64,000 nucleotides of DNA from Xanthomonas indica (GTDB lineage Bacteria; Pseudomonadota; Gammaproteobacteria; Xanthomonadales; Xanthomonadaceae), in assembly GCF_040529045.1 (NCBI RefSeq), contig NZ_CP131914.1, positions 2,402,501 to 2,466,500 of the forward strand, given 5' to 3'. This document shows positions 9,390 through 32,113 of the stretch, in pieces. Below the pieces are notes generated by a model, which saw only the letters and a list, made by a program, of their open reading frames with translations, made no database searches and was not told the origin of the DNA. Every line of letters starts with the position of its first letter. Position 1 is the stretch's first letter. The position numbers were made by a program, and so were the translations under genes.

Positions 9390-9961
9390 TGGAACGTCGC
9401 GAACTGCTGAAGATGATCTTTGCCGCCACGGGCGCGGCCATGGTGGGCCTGCCCGCGCTGGTCCAGGCACAGGCGCCGGTCGCGGGGGCGAAGGCGCTCT
9501 TCTCCGTCACCGATGTCGCCACGTTGGACGAGATCGCCGAGACCATCCTGCCGCGGACCAAGACACCGGGGGCGAAGGACGCCGGCGCCGGCGCGTTCAT
9601 GGCCAAATTCGTCACCGACTGCTACACCCCCCGGCAGCAGGTGGCGTTCCGCGCCGGCCTGGCCGAGATCGACAAACGTGCCGGCGGTCGTTTCGTGTCG
9701 CTCACGCCACAGGCCCGCACCGAGCTGCTGCGCGCCCTGGATGCGGAAGCCAGGACACAGCTCATCGACGTGACCGACACCGGGACCGCCAAAGCGGCGG
9801 ACGCGATGCCGCATCCCTTCACGATGCTCAAGCAGCTGACCATCTTCGGCTTCTTCACCTCCCAGGTCGGCGCGACCGACGTGCTGCGCTACGTCGCCGT
9901 GCCGGGCCGCTACGAGGACCTCACCTATGTTCCCGGTACGCCTGCTTGGGCAACCAGTTGA
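9389..9961 (+). CDS. Gluconate 2-dehydrogenase subunit 3-like small subunit (Tat)
   Basis: A 190-residue protein of the gluconate 2-dehydrogenase subunit 3 family. The N-terminus MERRELLKMIFAATGAAMVG is a Tat signal (RRELLK). Family features include DEIAETILPRTKTPGAKDAG and the FTMLKQLTIFGFFTSQVG segment. In related enzymes this subunit acts as chaperone and Tat hitch-hiking partner of the FAD subunit. Its start codon overlaps the stop of the GMC gene by one base, indicating tight translational coupling. Confidence 0.87.
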   Translation: MERRELLKMIFAATGAAMVGLPALVQAQAPVAGAKALFSVTDVATLDEIAETILPRTKTPGAKDAGAGAFMAKFVTDCYTPRQQVAFRAGLAEIDKRAGGRFVSLTPQARTELLRALDAEARTQLIDVTDTGTAKAADAMPHPFTMLKQLTIFGFFTSQVGATDVLRYVAVPGRYEDLTYVPGTPAWATS

Positions 9962-10004
9962 TGGACCGCCACGCGTTACCCTTCCTCCCGTTCCTGGAAA
10001 CACG

Positions 10005-10748
10005 ATGACCAGACCCCTGCTGATGGCCGCCTGTCTGCTGGCCGCGGCGCCTGCATTCGCGCAGGCCGACGGCGATCCCGCACGCGACCCGGCCAAGACC
10101 GAAGTGTGGAAGCCCGTGCCTGCGATCGTGGCCACGCCCCCGGGCGGCGCGCCCTCCGATGCGATCGTGCTGTTCGATGGCAAGGATCTGTCGGCCTGGG
10201 AGTCGGAGCAGGGCGGACGCGCGCCCTGGACCGTCGCCGACGGCGCGCTGACCGTGGTGCCGGGCAGCAAGGGCATCCGCACCAGGCAGCGCTTCTGCGA
10301 CATCCAGTTGCACGTCGAGTGGCGCACGCCCACCGAGACCCGCGGATTCGAAGGCCAGCAGCGGGGAAACAGCGGCATCTTCCTGCAGGAACGGTATGAG
10401 TTGCAGGTGCTCGACAGCGACAACAACCCGACCTATGCCAACGGCCAGGCCGGTGCGATCTACAAGCAGGCCATTCCGCTGGTGAATGCCTCGCGTGCGC
10501 CGGGCCAGTGGCAGGTGTACGACATCATCTGGAAGGCGCCCCGTTTCTCGCAGGGCGGCGGTCTTACTTCACCGGCCCGCATCACCGTCCTGCACAACGG
10601 CGTCCTGGTGCAGGACGACACCGCGCTGTCCGGCAAGACCGAGTACATCGGCGCGCCGTCGTATGCGCCGCATGCCTGCGCGCCGATCCTCCTGCAGGAG
10701 CACGATTCGAAGGTCAGCTACCGCAACATCTGGGTGCGCGAGCTTTAG
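10005..10748 (+). CDS. DUF1080 (3-keto-disaccharide hydrolase-type) periplasmic protein
   Basis: A 247-residue DUF1080 protein with a signal peptide ending AAAPAFAQA. Characteristic segments are AIVLFDGKDLSAWE and GNSGIFLQERYELQVLDS, in a concanavalin-like beta-sandwich. Members of this family cleave 3-keto-glycosides made by glucoside 3-dehydrogenases. It is the last gene of the plus-strand operon. The ATG at 10005 was chosen because the signal peptide starts there; the upstream extension is not family-like. The specific glycoside is not known. Confidence 0.83.
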   Translation: MTRPLLMAACLLAAAPAFAQADGDPARDPAKTEVWKPVPAIVATPPGGAPSDAIVLFDGKDLSAWESEQGGRAPWTVADGALTVVPGSKGIRTRQRFCDIQLHVEWRTPTETRGFEGQQRGNSGIFLQERYELQVLDSDNNPTYANGQAGAIYKQAIPLVNASRAPGQWQVYDIIWKAPRFSQGGGLTSPARITVLHNGVLVQDDTALSGKTEYIGAPSYAPHACAPILLQEHDSKVSYRNIWVREL

Positions 10749-11042
10749 CGCCGGCGCGCAGTCGGCGCCGGTCGCCTGGGACGTCTGATCATTCCCGAAC
10801 CTGACGTGCCGCGATCGCGCGCGCTTGTGGCAAGAAAAGCGAAAGCAGTGGATGTGAGTCCACGCCCAAGCGATGACGTAGCGATGGGCGCACACAACCA
10901 CGGTCTTTCGGCTTGGGGCCGGGCAGGCGCGCGGCCCATACAGTGCTGCTTGCCCTGACAGCCGGTCAGGCGCTGCGCCACGCAACGCCGGCCGTGCGCC
11001 TGCCACACCCAGTGCGGCAGGCTCAGGAATTGGCGACAGTCC

Positions 11043-19016: not shown

Positions 19017-19049
19017 TCAGTGCGGTCCGGTGCGTCCGGATCGCACTGA
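19017..19049. terminator. Strong hairpin between convergent genes
   Basis: A 14-bp stem (TCAGTGCGGTCCGG with CCGGATCGCACTGA, including one G-T pair) with loop TGCGT lies between the convergent S9 peptidase and asparagine-synthetase-like genes. It has no T-tract, so it may be a bidirectional or Rho-assisted terminator. The rest of 18962-19292 holds no recognisable gene. Confidence 0.5.
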
Positions 19050-19292
19050 TGCTGGGTGGATGCCATAGCTCCGTGTGAGCAAGTGGCACTTGGAGGACTT
19101 GTCGCCGCCATCGTCATGGAGGGCGCTGGGCCGAGTCGCGATTCTCGGTTGCCCCTGCTCAGCGTGTGCCACGGGTTACTTGCGAGGTGAAAACTGGCGC
19201 TGCATCAAGTGCCGACCACCACTTCGACACCGTCGTGCCGCCACGTCCGGGCCTGCCGGGACGGCCGCTTCGAGGCCTGCTGAGTGCGACTG

Positions 19293-20858
19293 TCAGGCAA
19301 ACTGCCGAACGAAGCGCTCCAGCCAAAGGAACGAGATCAACGGTGCCGTCAGTGGACGCGCGCGCGTCGCCACCAACTCGTCCAGCAATTTCAGTACGGC
19401 GTCTCGGTCGACCAGGCCCAAGTCGGCGAGGGCGCATTCGCTCAACTGCATGGCGATCGTCCTGGCGTGATGTGCGATCAACGCGGGGAGCACATGCGCG
19501 AACGTTTCCTTGCAATAATTCCGCGGAAATATGTCGCCTACCTTGGCCCGTAAATAGCGCCACATCGTTTCTCGATCTTTACGGCACTCGAGGGGGAGGC
19601 CCCGACAGAAAGCCACCAGATGTGGATCGCTTAAGGGATTGACCGGCCAGAGGCCTCGCCGAAGCAGATGGGGAGCCTGGCACGCGTTCGACGCCAATAC
19701 GGATGCGGACAACAGGCCGGCGGGAGCATCAAATCCACTGATCGAGCGCGATGCAGTGAGCGCGCGGGGCGTCAACAACAGGTTCGCGCGACGCTTGGCT
19801 TCTGCGGCCACACCGCTGCCGGGACCGGCGGCGGGATGTTCCTCGTTCCGGTACATCGGCAGCAGCTGGTCTCCGCCAATACCGGTGAAAAGCCATTCGC
19901 TGCCCTGTGCTTGAGCGCAGTCCCACAAATGTTCGAACGCTTCGAGATAGAACTCGGCAAGGGGATAGTCCGGTCGAGCCGCACGCGGTTGCAGATCGAG
20001 CGTTGGCGGAAATGAAACGATAGAGACGCTCGTGTCGCGAAGGCCGAGCTTTTCAACAAGCATGCGGCGGCGTTGGACCTGGTTTTGACTGTCTCCCTCG
20101 TCGAGCAAGATTCCAAAGCTCAGGATGTTGTCATGCGATCGCGTCAGAGCGCACGCAACGGTCGCCGAGTCCATGCCCCCACTCAACTCCGTGGCCACCC
20201 GCTTCGACGCGGGACGAATCGATGTGGCACGGTGCAACAGCTGCTCGAATCGCGCTACACCGTAGTCGATCAGTGCTTCTTCGGAAGGGGGTACGGTTTC
20301 AGCAGGCAAGGGATAGACGTAACGCGTCTTGCTCGGCTCGGCGTAAAGCGTGGCGCGTTCTGTCAGCATCACGACGCCCGAACACAGCTGCCTGGCGGCG
20401 TAGTCCGCGTTGAGTGCGAGACGCCGACTGGCCATCTCCAGGTCGATGGTGGTGGGCCGGGAAAAAAAGTCGGCCAGATCGTAGGAGAGTTCTACTGTGG
20501 CATCGGTGACCCGGCAATAGACCGGCACCGATCCGAGAAGGCCCGCGCGCAATTTCAGTCGGGATCCGGCCTGGGCCACTTCGATCATCAGATAATCAAG
20601 CGGCCAGAGAAGGGCTTCTTTGTAGAGTTGGTTGAATCGATCGGCGTCGACCAACGCGTCCGCCTCGGTTTTTTCAAATGCGATATCCGTGCAGCGCTCG
20701 CGTACCGTCGCGAACCACTGTCCCTGCGTGCGAACCACGACGGTTTCCAGCGCAGGGTGACGGTAGGGCGCGATCTGGCTGTTCCCGAGACACAGGAGAT
20801 TGTCCTGCCACACCGGGGAATGTTCGAGGTCGGAAAAAGCGACGTTGGCCTTGATCAT
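19293..20858 (-). CDS. Asparagine-synthetase-like enzyme (candidate lasso/RiPP cyclase)
   Basis: A 521-residue protein of the asparagine synthase fold. The PP-loop ELSGGMDSATVACAL lies near residue 245 and a second ATP-site segment, GIGGDQLLPMY, near residue 340. The N-terminal domain does not start with Cys, so it cannot act as a glutaminase; this is typical of lasso cyclases and beta-lactam synthetases that adenylate a carboxylate and close an amide bond. The ATG at 20858 was chosen; the frame is open 34 codons further up. It follows a 54-residue peptide gene and an attenuator-like hairpin on the same strand. No B-protein (leader peptidase/RRE) gene was found nearby. The RiPP role is inferred. 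Confidence 0.72.
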   Translation of the reverse strand: MIKANVAFSDLEHSPVWQDNLLCLGNSQIAPYRHPALETVVVRTQGQWFATVRERCTDIAFEKTEADALVDADRFNQLYKEALLWPLDYLMIEVAQAGSRLKLRAGLLGSVPVYCRVTDATVELSYDLADFFSRPTTIDLEMASRRLALNADYAARQLCSGVVMLTERATLYAEPSKTRYVYPLPAETVPPSEEALIDYGVARFEQLLHRATSIRPASKRVATELSGGMDSATVACALTRSHDNILSFGILLDEGDSQNQVQRRRMLVEKLGLRDTSVSIVSFPPTLDLQPRAARPDYPLAEFYLEAFEHLWDCAQAQGSEWLFTGIGGDQLLPMYRNEEHPAAGPGSGVAAEAKRRANLLLTPRALTASRSISGFDAPAGLLSASVLASNACQAPHLLRRGLWPVNPLSDPHLVAFCRGLPLECRKDRETMWRYLRAKVGDIFPRNYCKETFAHVLPALIAHHARTIAMQLSECALADLGLVDRDAVLKLLDELVATRARPLTAPLISFLWLERFVRQFA

Positions 20859-20911
20859 GGCGACTCGGCTGCCTGCGATCGGCGTCGGGTGGTTATCGCG
20901 CTTTCGAACAG

Positions 20912-20939
20912 AAGAACGCCGCCTGATGGCGGCGCTCTT
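20912..20939 (-). terminator. Attenuator-like hairpin between peptide and cyclase genes
   Basis: On the minus strand AAGAGCGCCGCC pairs with GGCGGCGTTCTT (12 bp with one G-U) around the loop ATCA, followed by CTGTT. It lies between the peptide stop at 20973 and the enzyme start at 20858. Such a hairpin would keep precursor mRNA in excess over enzyme mRNA. Confidence 0.6.
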
Positions 20940-20972
20940 TATCGCGATGCCTTGGTGCAATCGCCGTCGTTT

Positions 20973-21137
20973 TTAGCCGCCAGGTTGCGTGGAGTACCCG
21001 CGAGAATCCTCACCAAGATAAGGCTTCATCTCGCAGACGCCAGCCGCCGCAATATTTTGCATGGGCTCGTCGAGCTGGATAGCGAAAGGATTGGAAAGAG
21101 AATCTTGTTTCTCAAGCTTGCCATCTTGAATTTTCAT
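20973..21137 (-). CDS. 54-residue candidate RiPP precursor peptide
   Basis: A short gene with a strong ribosome site (AAGGAG, seven bases before the ATG). The N-terminal 30 or so residues are leader-like and polar (MKIQDGKLEKQDSLSNPF). The segment LDEPMQNIAAAG resembles the end of double-glycine-type leaders (L-x-E-x-L-x-x-V/I-x-G-G). The remainder, VCEMKPYLGEDSRGYSTQPG plus a final G, is a plausible core. The Thr at leader position -2 usual in lasso precursors is absent. GC content is 50 percent (83 of 165 bases), far below the neighbours, suggesting transfer. It is encoded just before the asparagine-synthetase-like enzyme. The sequence is not one I recognise. Confidence 0.6.
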   Translation of the reverse strand: MKIQDGKLEKQDSLSNPFAIQLDEPMQNIAAAGVCEMKPYLGEDSRGYSTQPGG

Positions 21138-21229
21138 CACAAAACTCCTTTTTCTAGATGTCGTCATGTGGCGACGAGCAGAAGCTAGCACCGCGCCCAT
21201 GGCAAGACAAGTTTTTATGGGTGCAATGG

Positions 21230-21262
21230 TTTCATGTGAAACATATGAAACTGGGCGTTTCA
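21230..21262. promoter_or_regulatory. Clustered TTTCA/TGAAA repeats upstream of peptide gene
   Basis: TTTCA at 21230 and 21258 and TGAAA at 21237 and 21246 form an inverted pair with a 2-nt spacer plus two further half-sites, about 95 bp before the peptide start in an AT-rich stretch. This could be a regulator-binding site. The remaining gap up to 21594 shows no gene. Confidence 0.4.
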
Positions 21263-21594
21263 AATGCTTCTCTACATTTATGTGCGAATGACGCCTACAC
21301 GCGCTGTTGATTGCCTTGAGGTGGCGCCGGACAAGGCCGGTATGGCAGCGGGGATGTTATACGTGCCAACGAATGGTCATTGGTGCTCCGAAAAGAGTAT
21401 CGACGCGCGCTCTCCACTTTTCTGATGGAATTCTAGGGGCGCTCCAGCGGGATGCGCGGCGGCTGCACTGGGTCCAGTGCGTTTGATTGCTCAGCGTGAC
21501 CAGCAGGTCTTATCGCCGTCGTTGTCAACTACGACTCAAGATGCGCGCGCCGATGGGTGAACCGGTCGCGTCGCGGCTCGGGCGACGCAGCCGC

Positions 21595-23459: not shown

Positions 23460-24034
23460 CCCTCACCCCAACCCCTCTCCCGGTGGGAGAGGGGCTCTTG
23501 CTGTTCCTTCTCCCATCGGGAGAAGGTGCCCCGCAGGGGCGGATGAGGGTCGGGCAGGGCAGTCAATTGCGGGGGCGCGGCGTGCCGCCGGACCCTCACC
23601 CCAACCCCTCTTCCGGTGGGAGAGGGGCTAACTGCTGTTCCTTCTCCCATTGGGAGAAGGTGCCCCGCAGGGGCGGATGAGGGTCGGGCAGGGCAGTCAA
23701 TTGCGTGGGGCGCCGCGTGCCGCCGCACCCTCACCCCAACCCCTCTCCCGGTGGGAGAGGGGCTAACTGCTGTTCCTTCTCCCATTGGGAGAAGGTGCCC
23801 CGCAGGGGCGGATGAGGGTCGGGCAGAGCAGTCATTGCGGGGGCGCCGCGTGCCGCCGGACCCTCACCCCAACCCCTCTCCCGGTGGGAGAGGGGCTCTT
23901 GCTGTTCCTTCTCCCATTGGGAGAAGGTGCCCCGCAGGGGCGGATGAGGGTCTGGCAGGGCAGTCAATTGCGTGGGGCGCCGCGTGCCGCCGCTCCCTCA
24001 CCCCAACCCCTCTCCCGGTGGGAGAGGGGCAACC
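23460..24034. repeat. Tandem array, about 134-bp unit, 4.3 copies
   Basis: Units begin with CCCTCACCCCAACCCCTCTC at 23460, 23593, 23728, 23861 and 23995 (the last partial). Each unit holds two small palindromes (CCTCTCCCGGTGGGAGAGG and CCTTCTCCCATTGGGAGAAG) and ends GCGGATGAGGGT. The copies are nearly identical. The array fills the gap between the POT and OPT transporter genes. It is not a CRISPR: the units are long and lack short repeats with unique spacers. Confidence 0.9.
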
Positions 24035-24190
24035 ATCCGCCCCTGAGCGCTGCTACTTCTGCGAATCCCTAATCCCAACTCCCCAATCCCCGCCCCCCAG
24101 GCATGTGCCACAAGCTGGGTGCCATTAGGCTGGACTTGCCCGGCCCCAGACGCTAGCGTGCAAAGCGTTTTTGTCGTTTCAGGGGTAACC

Positions 24191-28984: not shown

Positions 28985-30229
28985 ATGCCCTCGACGCCCC
29001 TGATCACCAACGACATCGTCATCTTCGGCCTGATCGCTGCCACCCTGGGTGCGGTGTTCTGGAGCGCGGCGCGGCCGTCGGGATTCTGGAAGCGCTTCTA
29101 CGGCATCGTGCCGGCGCTGCTGCTGTGCTACCTGATCCCCGGCATCTACAACACCGTCGGCCTGATCGACGGCCAGCACAATTCGCTCTACAACCCGGTC
29201 GCGCGCGATGTGCTGCTGCCGGCGGCACTGGTGCTGCTGACCCTCACCGTCGACCTCAAGGGGATCCTGCGGCTGGGGCCCAAGCTGGTGGCGATGTACC
29301 TGGGCGCGTCCTTCAGCATCATGCTGGGCGCGGTGGCGGCGTTCCAGATCATGAAGTGGCTGCACCCGGTCACCGTGGCCGGCGACACCTGGGCCGGCAT
29401 GGCGGCGTTGGCCGGCAGCTGGATCGGCGGTGGCGCCAATATGCTGGCGATGCGCGAGGTGTTCCAGGTCGATGCCACCACCTTCGGCCAATTCGCGGTG
29501 GTCGACGTCGGCGTCGGCTACGTGTGGATGGCGCTGCTGATCTTCCTGGCGCAGCGTGCGCCGGCCATCGACGCGCGCACGGGCGCCGATACCCGCGGCA
29601 TCGATGAGCTCAAGCAGCGCATCGCCCAGTTCCAGGCCCAGCACGAACGCGTGGCCAGCCTCACCGACCTGATGCTGATCGTCGGCGTCGCCTTCGGTGC
29701 GGTCGGCCTGGCGCATGCGATCGCCACGCCAGCGGCGGCGTGGTTCGACGCCAACGTCAGCTGGGCCAAGCAGTTCAGCCTCGGCTCGCCGTTCGTGTGG
29801 GTGGTGGTACTGGCGACCACCTTCGGCCTGCTGCTCAGCTTCACCCGCGCGCGCACCCTCGAGGGCGCCGGCGCCTCGCGCATCGGCACGCTGCTGCTGT
29901 ACTTCCTGATCGCCTGCATCGGCATGCAGATGGACCTGCTGGCGCTGTTCGACCGGCCCTGGATCTTCGCGCTCGGCCTGATCTGGCTGATCGTGCACAT
30001 CCTGTTGCTGTTGGCGCTGGGCAAGCTGCTGCGGGTGCCGTTCTTCTACTTCGCGATCGGCTCGCAGAGCAACGTCGGCGGCCCGGCCTCGGCCCCGGTG
30101 GTGGCGGCCGCGTTCCATCCGGCGCTGGCACCGGTCGGCGTGCTGCTCGGCACGATGGGCTACGCCACCGGCACCTATCTGGCCTATGTGGTGGGCATCG
30201 TGCTGCGCGCAATGGCCGGCGCCGGCTGA
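28985..30229 (+). CDS. DUF819-family membrane protein
   Basis: A 414-residue polytopic membrane protein of the DUF819 (YjcL-like) family. Conserved stretches include GSWIGGGANMLAMRE around residue 145 and GSQSNVGGPASAPVVAAAF near the C-terminus, which look like a duplicated transporter-type fold. The soluble loop around residues 195-225 is predicted helical (DELKQRIAQFQAQHERV). The substrate is not known. It stands alone between repeat-rich DNA and the lectin gene. Confidence 0.8.
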   Translation: MPSTPLITNDIVIFGLIAATLGAVFWSAARPSGFWKRFYGIVPALLLCYLIPGIYNTVGLIDGQHNSLYNPVARDVLLPAALVLLTLTVDLKGILRLGPKLVAMYLGASFSIMLGAVAAFQIMKWLHPVTVAGDTWAGMAALAGSWIGGGANMLAMREVFQVDATTFGQFAVVDVGVGYVWMALLIFLAQRAPAIDARTGADTRGIDELKQRIAQFQAQHERVASLTDLMLIVGVAFGAVGLAHAIATPAAAWFDANVSWAKQFSLGSPFVWVVVLATTFGLLLSFTRARTLEGAGASRIGTLLLYFLIACIGMQMDLLALFDRPWIFALGLIWLIVHILLLLALGKLLRVPFFYFAIGSQSNVGGPASAPVVAAAFHPALAPVGVLLGTMGYATGTYLAYVVGIVLRAMAGAG

Positions 30230-30585
30230 GTCGCAGCGGCGTTAAAGTCGGCCGCCGCCTGCTGCGGCGGCAACTGCGGCCGGTGTGAGGTTTCGTGCTT
30301 TGGCGCGTATTACCTCGATGACCTTGCTATCTGGACCGCCATGTGCCGAGGCTGTGTGGCGACAGCGTTGACACTGCCAGCCTTTCGGGAAATTTCTGCT
30401 ACTGGCATCTTTCTGATTTTAAGTTGCTTCAGGTGGATTCGTCCTGTTCATTTTTGTAAAGAACTGCCATCATTGCGTTGCCGGCGCGGAAGCTCGGCTG
30501 AAACTATTGAGGATACGCGTCAGTTTCGATTTTTGGTCGCGCGCTTGCCGGCATTCGATGGCTAATTAAATAATCTGGAGTGGTG

Positions 30586-31860
30586 ATGAAAGGGATAGTG
30601 GGTATTGCCTGTGCTGTGCTTGCGATGGCGTCTTTTCAGGCGTCGGCGATCGGTTCCCGATTTGCGAATTATCAAACGACAACGGTTGTGTCGTCTTCGA
30701 AGTCATCTCCTGCGGGCGGTGAGACGATCACCATCACCGGCAAAGTGACAGCCTCGGCCTTGGGTGTCTTTGTCGGCAATCCGATCGCGGGAGAAGATAT
30801 CGGTGGACGAATCAATCTATTTGTGAATGGGGTTTCGATCGGCCAAATGAAGGTTGGCCGTAACAATACCGGGGTGGTGGGGAGGGTGACGGAGCTCGAT
30901 AATGGTTGCTATCTTGCAACACAAGATCCGGCTCGCTGTACTTATTATTTTTATTATGCGCGAGAAGCCAGTTTTTCGATGAGCTATACGCTTCCTGCTC
31001 AGTTCGACAGCGTCACGATCACGGCTAACTTCACCGGCGATTCGAACTTCTCGAAATCCTCTGCGTCTGCCCAGGTCACCCTCAAAAACATGCCCGTCTT
31101 CGGCATGATCAAAGGCATGGGCAACAAGTGTCTCGATGCGGAAGGCGGCGGAACCGCGAACGGTACTGCGATCCAACAGTACGATTGCAATGAAAATGTG
31201 CAGCAAATGTGGAGCGTGGTGTCCGGTTCCGGTTACATCCAGGGCGTGCCGAGTGGTCTTGTCCTGGATGTGAGGGATTACGGCACGTCCAATGGCAGCG
31301 AGCTCCAGTTGTGGGGCGGCCTGGGTGGTACAAACCAGCAGTGGCGCTTCACTAATACAGCAATCGTGGGGATCGGCGGCAAGGTTCTAGATGCTGTCGG
31401 ACAATCCAGCAGTAACGGTACCCGGTTGCAGATGTATTCGTCACTGTCGAACGCAGGTCAGACTTGGAACTATGACCCGATTTCTGGTCAGATCCAGGGC
31501 ATCGGCGGTAAATGCCTGGATGTCGAGAACGGTTCGACTGCGGACGGGACTGTGGTGCAGTTGTGGGATTGCACCGGGGTTCCTCAGCAGCGTTGGGAAA
31601 TGGGAGAGCGCGGTACTTTGCGTTACGGTGGCAAGTGCCTTGAGTCCGCGAATGGCAGCGCTCAGGACGGTAATCCCGTCCGCCTATGGACCTGCAATGG
31701 TGGTGCGCATCAATCCTGGCGTCTGCTGGGTGAAATCCGCAACGTGGGCAGCAATCGCTGTCTGGCGGATCCGGGTCGCGGCACCACGAACGGTGCGCGT
31801 ACCTACATCTGGGAATGCAGTGGCGATGTAAACCAGAAGTGGGATTACTCTTCGTACTGA
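30586..31860 (+). CDS. Secreted protein with Ig-like domain and two ricin-B lectin trefoils
   Basis: A 424-residue exported protein with signal peptide MKGIVGIACAVLAMASFQAS. Residues about 25-165 look like a bacterial Ig-like beta-sandwich (GGETITITGKV, FDSVTITANFTGDSNFSKSS). Six QxW motifs follow (QQMW, NQQW, GQTW, QQRW, HQSW, NQKW), which makes two complete ricin-B beta-trefoils, each subdomain with a GGKCLD-type motif. No catalytic domain is visible, so it probably only binds carbohydrate. The ATG at 30586 follows CTGGAG. Codon use is visibly less GC-rich than the neighbours, suggesting acquisition. The gap 30230-30585 before it is also AT-richer, with no convincing gene. Confidence 0.82.
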   Translation: MKGIVGIACAVLAMASFQASAIGSRFANYQTTTVVSSSKSSPAGGETITITGKVTASALGVFVGNPIAGEDIGGRINLFVNGVSIGQMKVGRNNTGVVGRVTELDNGCYLATQDPARCTYYFYYAREASFSMSYTLPAQFDSVTITANFTGDSNFSKSSASAQVTLKNMPVFGMIKGMGNKCLDAEGGGTANGTAIQQYDCNENVQQMWSVVSGSGYIQGVPSGLVLDVRDYGTSNGSELQLWGGLGGTNQQWRFTNTAIVGIGGKVLDAVGQSSSNGTRLQMYSSLSNAGQTWNYDPISGQIQGIGGKCLDVENGSTADGTVVQLWDCTGVPQQRWEMGERGTLRYGGKCLESANGSAQDGNPVRLWTCNGGAHQSWRLLGEIRNVGSNRCLADPGRGTTNGARTYIWECSGDVNQKWDYSSY

Positions 31861-31872
31861 TTGCCTGAACTA

Positions 31873-31903
31873 GAAGGCCCGGGAATTCCCGGGCCTTCTT
31901 TTT
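31873..31903 (+). terminator. Terminator after the lectin gene
   Basis: A perfect stem GAAGGCCCGGG and CCCGGGCCTTC with loop AATT is followed by TTTTT. Confidence 0.92.
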
Positions 31904-32113
31904 ACGAGCGCCTCCTGGTCGGCTCAGCGTGCTCACATGTATCACGCCTAATACAAACGGCAGAACGATCGCTTGGCGCTGCCAAAGCCTGCGCGGGTCC
32001 ATTTCCATCGGCTTGGCCCCCAGAACGCGGGCTTGATGTTCGCCCGCTCGAACCGTCCCGACGTCTCGGTTGGACAACGTGACGCGCTCTTCAACTGTAA
32101 GCACTGCGAGCGG

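Follow-up and report, generated by a model that had tools for sequence, protein, structure and literature searches.

A conserved leader-core peptide and a lasso-cyclase-like enzyme form a candidate two-gene RiPP system in Xanthomonas indica and its relatives

Graspetides of the microviridin type are omega-ester/omega-amide peptides made by ATP-grasp ligases, and the omega-amide ring of microviridin joins Lys to Glu. In other RiPPs, the asparagine-synthetase (AS) fold is known to serve in the making of lasso knots, C-terminal amides and nitriles, according to parts of a 2026 preprint (PMC13060819). It is established, in the same source, that enzymes with a PF00733 domain adenylate a carboxylate, which is then attacked by an amine, and that the AS-like RiPP enzymes TsrC, ScdTA and PesC act on the C-terminal carboxylate. 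The preprint also counts about 300 uncharacterised AS-like RiPP candidates, which may or may not include the family considered here. A literature search of titles and abstract openings, with preprints and most subscription journals largely outside its range, found no description of this family. None is given in the available passages of PMC13060819, PMC13352647 and PMC13133039 either, and the accessible part of PMC13003496 contains none of the terms searched for.

The window analyzed here is a 64,000-nt chromosomal stretch of the X. indica genome, and all coordinates without another source refer to it. On its minus strand, a precursor peptide gene of 54 codons plus stop (20973..21137) stands before the gene of a 521-residue enzyme (19293..20858). 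Inspection of the sequence confirmed the initial annotation of this pair as a low-GC peptide with a ribosome site in front of an AsnB-fold enzyme that lacks the glutaminase Cys. The ribosome-binding site, AAAAAGGAG (21145..21153, minus strand, read from the sequence), ends 7 nt before the peptide ATG, and the GC fraction is 0.503 in the peptide ORF and 0.605 in the enzyme gene, compared with a window mean of 0.678. The peptide matched no family in Pfam or NCBIfam. Its conservation in relatives was examined in ten copies, namely eight from seven genomes of the genus (one of which, G010, has two tandem copies), one from X. sacchari R1 and one from Rhodanobacter sp. ANJX3. The median dN/dS was 0.08 (45 pairwise values), and 39 of the 54 codons vary, 23 of them silently only. 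The peptide ORF is a real gene under purifying selection, with a strong synonymous bias. A search of related genomes found the peptide and the enzyme together in 7 of the 19 genomes of the genus, and this co-occurrence, taken with the synonymous bias of the peptide, is beyond chance.

The two genes lie within an inserted cassette of approximate extent 19048..21586, the limits of which were taken from comparison with one relative (L154) and which is absent from five cassette-free relatives. Nine of the 12 genomes of the genus without the enzyme have the neighbouring symporter. In the five of these nine that were examined, the S9 peptidase and symporter genes are adjacent with no enzyme match, separated by 118-284 bp in four and by 707 bp in the fifth (G014); the corresponding gap is about 2.5 kb in the window. 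The cassette thus comes and goes as a unit, and the POT-type symporter and the S9 peptidase are older host context. The same order of S9 peptidase, enzyme, peptide and oligopeptide:H+ symporter is found in X. sacchari R1, a plasmid-typed record whose enzyme is 80.6% identical to that of the window. Just past the peptide, a decayed remnant resembling the C-terminal end of an S9 peptidase lies on the plus strand (21311-21440) and reads LYVPTNGH, where the S9 peptidase reads LYVPTEGH; at this place, two tandem S9 genes are found in L158, a relative without the cassette. Elsewhere in the window, overlapping ORF translations at about 23470-24130 contain a GEGxxxxPSPxGRG-like stretch several times over, which suggests tandem intergenic repeats, and a 2-kb stretch at 30001-32000 has a GC content of 57%, compared with 68% for the window, and may be an acquired segment.

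Between the peptide and the enzyme, a GC-rich hairpin with a 12-bp stem is encoded on the minus strand (20912..20939). The stem is conserved at other loci: one of 8 bp or more lies between the peptide stop and the enzyme start in 34/34 loci with an upstream peptide. A run of at least three T residues accompanies it in 28 of these, and the window copy is among the six without. The hairpin is probably a partial terminator.

Full-length relatives of the enzyme (E below 1e-150) were found in 29 of 397 genomes of the order Lysobacterales, including an eighth carrier of the genus (G248). Together with four genomes from the genus search, this gives a carrier set of 33 genomes with 34 loci, and the addition of X. 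sacchari R1 gives 35 Lysobacterales loci. A peptide with the leader motif described below is present on the strand of the enzyme in all 35, making 37 peptides; it lies downstream of the enzyme in G317 and upstream at every other locus. When the same 397 genomes were searched with a peptide profile, matches were found in 12, all of them enzyme carriers. One carrier genome (G408) has two cassettes with different cores on different contigs (L069 and L084). For 33 of the 34 genome loci, gene order was compared on the calls of a simple gene finder, by which the enzyme gene was overlooked at four. Outside the Xanthomonas-type synteny block, no third family recurs in more than three loci, and one block of this kind is common to three genomes of one genus. 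At a threshold of E 1e-20, samples of the class (369 genomes) and the phylum (398 genomes) yielded the window genome and no other, which is weak evidence of rarity because at most three to four candidates per genome were scored. The phages searched gave no match to the family. What these loci hold in common, a conserved small precursor gene with leader and core linked to a putative modifying enzyme, is what characterizes a RiPP system.

The enzyme matches PF00733, the C-terminal domain of asparagine synthetases and lasso cyclases, at 46.9 bits (cutoff 21). It falls far below the cutoffs of more specific models, with 31 of 300 bits for the macrolactam cyclase NF033561 and 30 of 267 bits for the AsnB model TIGR01536. 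Two motifs are present in 32/32 family enzymes of the tree set: SGG-x-DS, which in the window enzyme is the ATP-pyrophosphatase loop SGGMDS (residues 226-231; 20166..20183, minus strand), and G-x-GGD, of which the GGD occupies residues 328-330 (19869..19877, minus strand). Lys450 (19509..19511, minus strand) aligns with a position at which five lasso cyclases all have Lys. Of the 32 family enzymes, 27 have Lys here and four have Arg; one Streptomyces enzyme has neither, and all five exceptions lie within the six enzymes of the Streptomyces/Rhizobium branch. Residues 1-3 read M-[I/L]-K in 28/28 alignment rows, so the class II glutaminase Cys, which would stand next to the initiator Met, is absent. 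Judged by its sequence, the ammonia-supplying (glutaminase) half of the enzyme is not functional.

In profile comparison, the family gives E 2.3e-17 with five lasso cyclases and a weaker E 1.6e-11 with five AsnB-type enzymes; four of these lasso cyclases come from clusters with annotated B proteins and one stands beside a B-type match. In a tree of 47 rows, to be read with its long branches and midpoint root in mind, the 32 family enzymes lie on one side of a 100/100 branch, the five lasso cyclases are grouped at 100/99 and the AsnB types at 93/99. A grouping with true asparagine synthetases was looked for in this tree and is not the case. The enzyme is therefore lasso-cyclase-like yet groups with neither set, since its profile is nearer to lasso cyclases and its branch is separate from both. 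AsnB differs further in its N-terminal nucleophile Cys, and the window genome contains a separate AsnB-type frame with GEGSDE (L104). Beta-lactam synthetase (PDB 1jgt) belongs to the same fold family, which in that case performs intramolecular amide formation; it differs in its small-molecule substrate, and its sequence is matched only in part (E 0.0011 over positions 94-260). An AlphaFold2 run with two sequences gave a mean pLDDT of 33.7.

All 37 Lysobacterales peptides carry a leader motif with the consensus NPFxIQx[D/E]xP[M/L], which in the window peptide is NPFAIQLDEPM (residues 16-26; 21060..21092, minus strand). It is likely a docking element for the neighbouring enzyme. The core that follows contains an invariant Lys, the proposed nucleophile (Lys38; 21024..21026, minus strand), whose register after the P[ML] of the motif is fixed in 33 of 35 distinct cores and one residue nearer in the other two. 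It also contains an invariant Asp, the proposed activated carboxylate (Asp44; 21006..21008, minus strand), at K+6 in 31 peptides and K+7 in six, so that K-x5/6-D holds in 37/37, with cores such as KPYLGED, KPMGFPQD, KIDDVGD and KPGLPSD. The residues after the Asp are small or varied and form tails of six residues or more. Across the family, the plasmid peptides described below included, the C-termini vary freely and include GG, DWG, DQT, DQD, EG, YL, DEN and DV. The suggestion in the initial annotation that the leader ends like a double-glycine leader was rejected. The AAAG/AAPG stretch on which it was based is confined to Xanthomonas-type peptides, and other leaders have unrelated residues at that place.

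Beyond the order, a tblastn search of plasmids returned 54 records, from Rhizobium (34), Bradyrhizobium (13), Streptomyces (3), Mesorhizobium (2), Aminobacter (1) and Xanthomonas (1). Fifteen plasmid loci were opened, eight from this list and seven from a second search with a Streptomyces enzyme; one of them is the Xanthomonas locus already counted among the 35. Each of the 15, Streptomyces included, has a short ORF with K-x5-D just upstream of the enzyme, for example KAPFPND in Bradyrhizobium, KGGKPGD in Rhizobium, and KPAGTED, KAAETSD and KMPGGGD in Streptomyces. The carriers of the two-gene unit are bacteria of soil or associated with plants. Nine of these peptides are annotated as hypothetical proteins (L126, L127, L129, L130, L132, L134-L137), and the other six (L128, L131, L133, L138-L140) are unannotated frames chosen with the motif in mind; at L133 there is another, annotated small ORF without the motif, and the L140 record has no annotation at that place. 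The coding status of the Bradyrhizobium frames is less sure because just 4 of the 15 codon changes in a pair of them are silent, without synonymous bias.

Among ordered residue pairs in the C-terminal 32 residues of 24 divergent peptides, Lys with Asp at +6 or +7 ranked first and was found in 23; the exception is the Mesorhizobium peptide of L127, in which the pair sits further up. These pair statistics are descriptive, as the sequences are akin and some were chosen by the motif. In 2000 trials with shuffled peptides, the Lys-Asp pair reached a mean of 6.5 and a maximum of 14 of 24, and the best of all the residue pairs tested across 60 shuffles reached 21, compared with the observed 23; such comparisons overstate independence because the peptides are related by descent.

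The genes around the plasmid pairs differ among the hosts. In three of the opened Rhizobium records (L135-L137), the gene before the pair is annotated as an acyl-homoserine-lactone synthase, and in a fourth (L130) the gene in this place is annotated as a GNAT acetyltransferase. The rhiA gene is near the pair in L130, L135 and L136, and nifHDKEN follows it in L135. In Rhizobium sp. Pop5, an acyl-homoserine-lactone synthase gene lies about 2.4 kb from the pair on the other strand. The rhiI-rhiABCD-rhiR context is described in the accessible part of a 2026 survey of Rhizobium quorum sensing (PMC13133039), where a term search did not find the word "asparagine". A stop after about 370 codons cuts short the enzyme frame of L135 (7938-9600 of this record; plasmid pRL10 of Rhizobium johnstonii 3841, a much-used strain), unlike the frames of other opened Rhizobium records, which are full-length. 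Directly after the enzyme gene, the Mesorhizobium plasmid locus L127 has phosphotransferase and GNAT acetyltransferase genes (9563-10986), with a possible tailoring or immunity function. Two of the three Streptomyces loci (L129 and L132) have an ABC transporter gene of about 580-630 codons after the enzyme gene, which is a possible exporter.

The reading that is favored here, with confidence a little above even, is a two-gene RiPP system in which the core Asp is activated by the enzyme and joined to the side chain of the Lys, giving an isopeptide ring on the intact precursor. The leader of the precursor would dock on the enzyme encoded next to it. Lacking a working glutaminase half, the enzyme would spend ATP to adenylate the invariant core Asp, and the activated Asp would be attacked by the side-chain amine of the invariant Lys, which lies six or seven residues towards the N-terminus. 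A side-chain isopeptide ring of seven or eight residues would thereby close, with a net loss of water and the release of AMP and PPi. Proteases encoded elsewhere may trim the product after cyclization, and owing to the hairpin between the genes, transcripts of the precursor probably outnumber those of the enzyme. With a side-chain nucleophile, no leader protease would be required before cyclization, which fits its absence from the gene pair. The Lys-Asp lactam is also the simplest reading of the sequences and is judged to be somewhat probable, since there is one invariant carboxylate, one invariant amine and no linked protease. That Lys and Asp never vary would also fit a lariat through an N-terminal Lys, or a function of its own for each of the two residues. 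What the sequences show are the paired genes, the selected peptide with its invariant residues, the hairpin, the insertion and a separate enzyme clade; docking of the leader, the bond itself, trimming and export are proposed, as is a biological role for the product.

The proposed system resembles graspetides in its conserved leader motif, followed by a core with a nucleophile and an acid at ring-forming spacing, and in that no cleavage would be required before cyclization. Its Lys-Asp spacing is comparable with that of the microviridin omega-amide ring. It differs from graspetides in that its sole linked enzyme, judged by the gene families that recur near the pair, is of the asparagine-synthetase family.

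Its other likeness is to lasso systems, and the initial annotation had considered a lasso subclass. In this reading, the main rival although it seems unlikely, a protease encoded elsewhere would cut before the Lys, and the alpha-amine of Lys1 would then join Asp7 or Asp8 to give a new kind of lasso or lariat with a tail of at least six residues. Lasso peptides have a threaded topology in which an acid at core position 7, 8 or 9 is bonded to the alpha-amine of residue 1; their leaders have Thr, or rarely Ile, at -2, and a leader peptidase of the PF13471 type (the B protein) is normally part of the cluster. Lasso C proteins (NF033535, NF033561; benenodin-type clusters L141, L142, L144 and L143) belong to the same fold family as the enzyme, share with it a C-terminal stretch of the LADLGLVD/LARHGVIN type and give the better profile match of the two groups compared. 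In both systems, a precursor stands beside a cyclase-type gene, and amide formation on a ribosomal peptide is expected. Counted from Lys as residue 1, the Asp is residue 7 or 8, and lasso peptides with rings of seven or eight residues are known; the tails of at least six residues after the Asp also suit this rival. An alpha-amine, however, would not require Lys in two phyla, and the invariant Lys sets the present peptides apart from lasso precursors, as the separate 100/100 clade sets apart their enzymes. As the initial annotation had stated, neither a B protein nor an exporter stands beside the window pair, and no Thr was found at -2 of the leader for the core starts considered, read by eye: with the Lys taken as the first core residue, E, A, L or Y stands at -2 in the 35 distinct cores, and with Cys35 taken as the first core residue of the window peptide, the residue is Gly. 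The isopeptidase/TonB-receptor set of clusters L141-L144 is also missing from the pair.

A genome-wide search for PF13471, the lasso B protein, which had been proposed along with the lasso reading, gave no match in the window genome. Full-length matches occur in 4 of the 33 carrier genomes (G003, G010, G206 and G317), leaving 29 with none; in 21 the matches are weak and partial (above the Pfam cutoff in 15), and eight, the window genome included, have no match at all. The weak matches were considered as B proteins and rejected, as all three that were checked among the 21 are general transglutaminase-like proteins of about 500 residues with a much better match to PF01841. Membership of a lasso subclass was rejected on these grounds, namely the rare B protein, the lack of Thr at -2 and the separate enzyme clade, and it is retained as a rival. 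Pseudomycoidin reportedly forms without a leader peptidase, so the lack of a B protein is compatible with a lasso. In G001, which belongs to the genus and does not carry the cassette, lasso B-type and C-type genes are adjacent (L089, 4593-7224).

Processing by trans-acting enzymes, which the initial annotation had raised, is possible, with C39 peptidase genes elsewhere in the window genome. Such peptidases are present in five of the six carrier genomes searched; the window genome has two, and the window itself has none. PF05402 (PqqD-type) gave one match in each of four of the same number of carrier genomes searched (six), all four belonging to the genus of the window, and none in the two carriers of another family. 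For this reason, a PqqD-type domain is no shared partner.

Another reaction at the activated Asp is also improbable: it could become an aspartimide, be converted to Asn with free ammonia or be ligated to an outside amine, with the Lys serving recognition. The small or varied residues after the Asp would suit this, and PF00733 enzymes activate carboxylates and can use free ammonia, as PesC did in vitro according to the available part of PMC13060819. It would leave unexplained why an invariant Lys stands at two spacings from the Asp, and the enzyme has no glutaminase half as an ammonia supplier. C-terminal amidation or nitrile formation, as by TsrC, ScdTA or PesC, is very improbable. Like the present enzyme, these are PF00733 enzymes acting on ribosomal peptides, and the parts of PMC13060819 that describe them show that such AS-like RiPP enzymes exist. 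By the same descriptions, PesC uses glutamine, whereas the present family lacks the required glutaminase Cys; its peptides vary freely at the C-terminus, and the conservation of Lys and Asp would have no explanation. The view that a metabolic asparagine synthetase of the ordinary kind happens to lie next to a chance ORF, for which the generic PF00733 annotation alone would speak, can practically be dismissed in view of the purifying selection, the linkage in all examined loci, the clade apart from AsnB types and the separate AsnB-type frame of the window genome.

The lasso and double-glycine parts of the initial annotation have thus given way, while its broader claim of an undescribed amide-forming RiPP candidate, made of a precursor and an AsnB-type enzyme, is supported, and neither the selection analysis nor the tree speaks against it. 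It is an evenly balanced question whether the Lys-Asp pairs represent an undescribed RiPP class, present in both Pseudomonadota and Actinomycetota, whose one lasso-cyclase-like enzyme takes the part of a graspetide ligase and, having evolved within the asparagine-synthetase fold, closes the Lys-Asp side-chain ring under the guidance of the leader and independently of a protease. If this is true, the asparagine-synthetase fold also makes side-chain isopeptide rings without prior removal of the leader, and it would have converged on graspetide chemistry. The unit appears to need two genes alone, so it would be easy to test and could serve peptide engineering. On the symbiotic plasmids of Rhizobium, the pair lies in the rhi region with an acyl-homoserine-lactone synthase gene before it, which suggests that its product may be a peptide of the legume rhizosphere under density control; that it is both density-controlled and exported can be offered as a reasonable guess only. 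An unstudied peptide beside a quorum-sensing synthase gene on Rhizobium plasmids may have a role in nodulation or competition, and such a role is testable.
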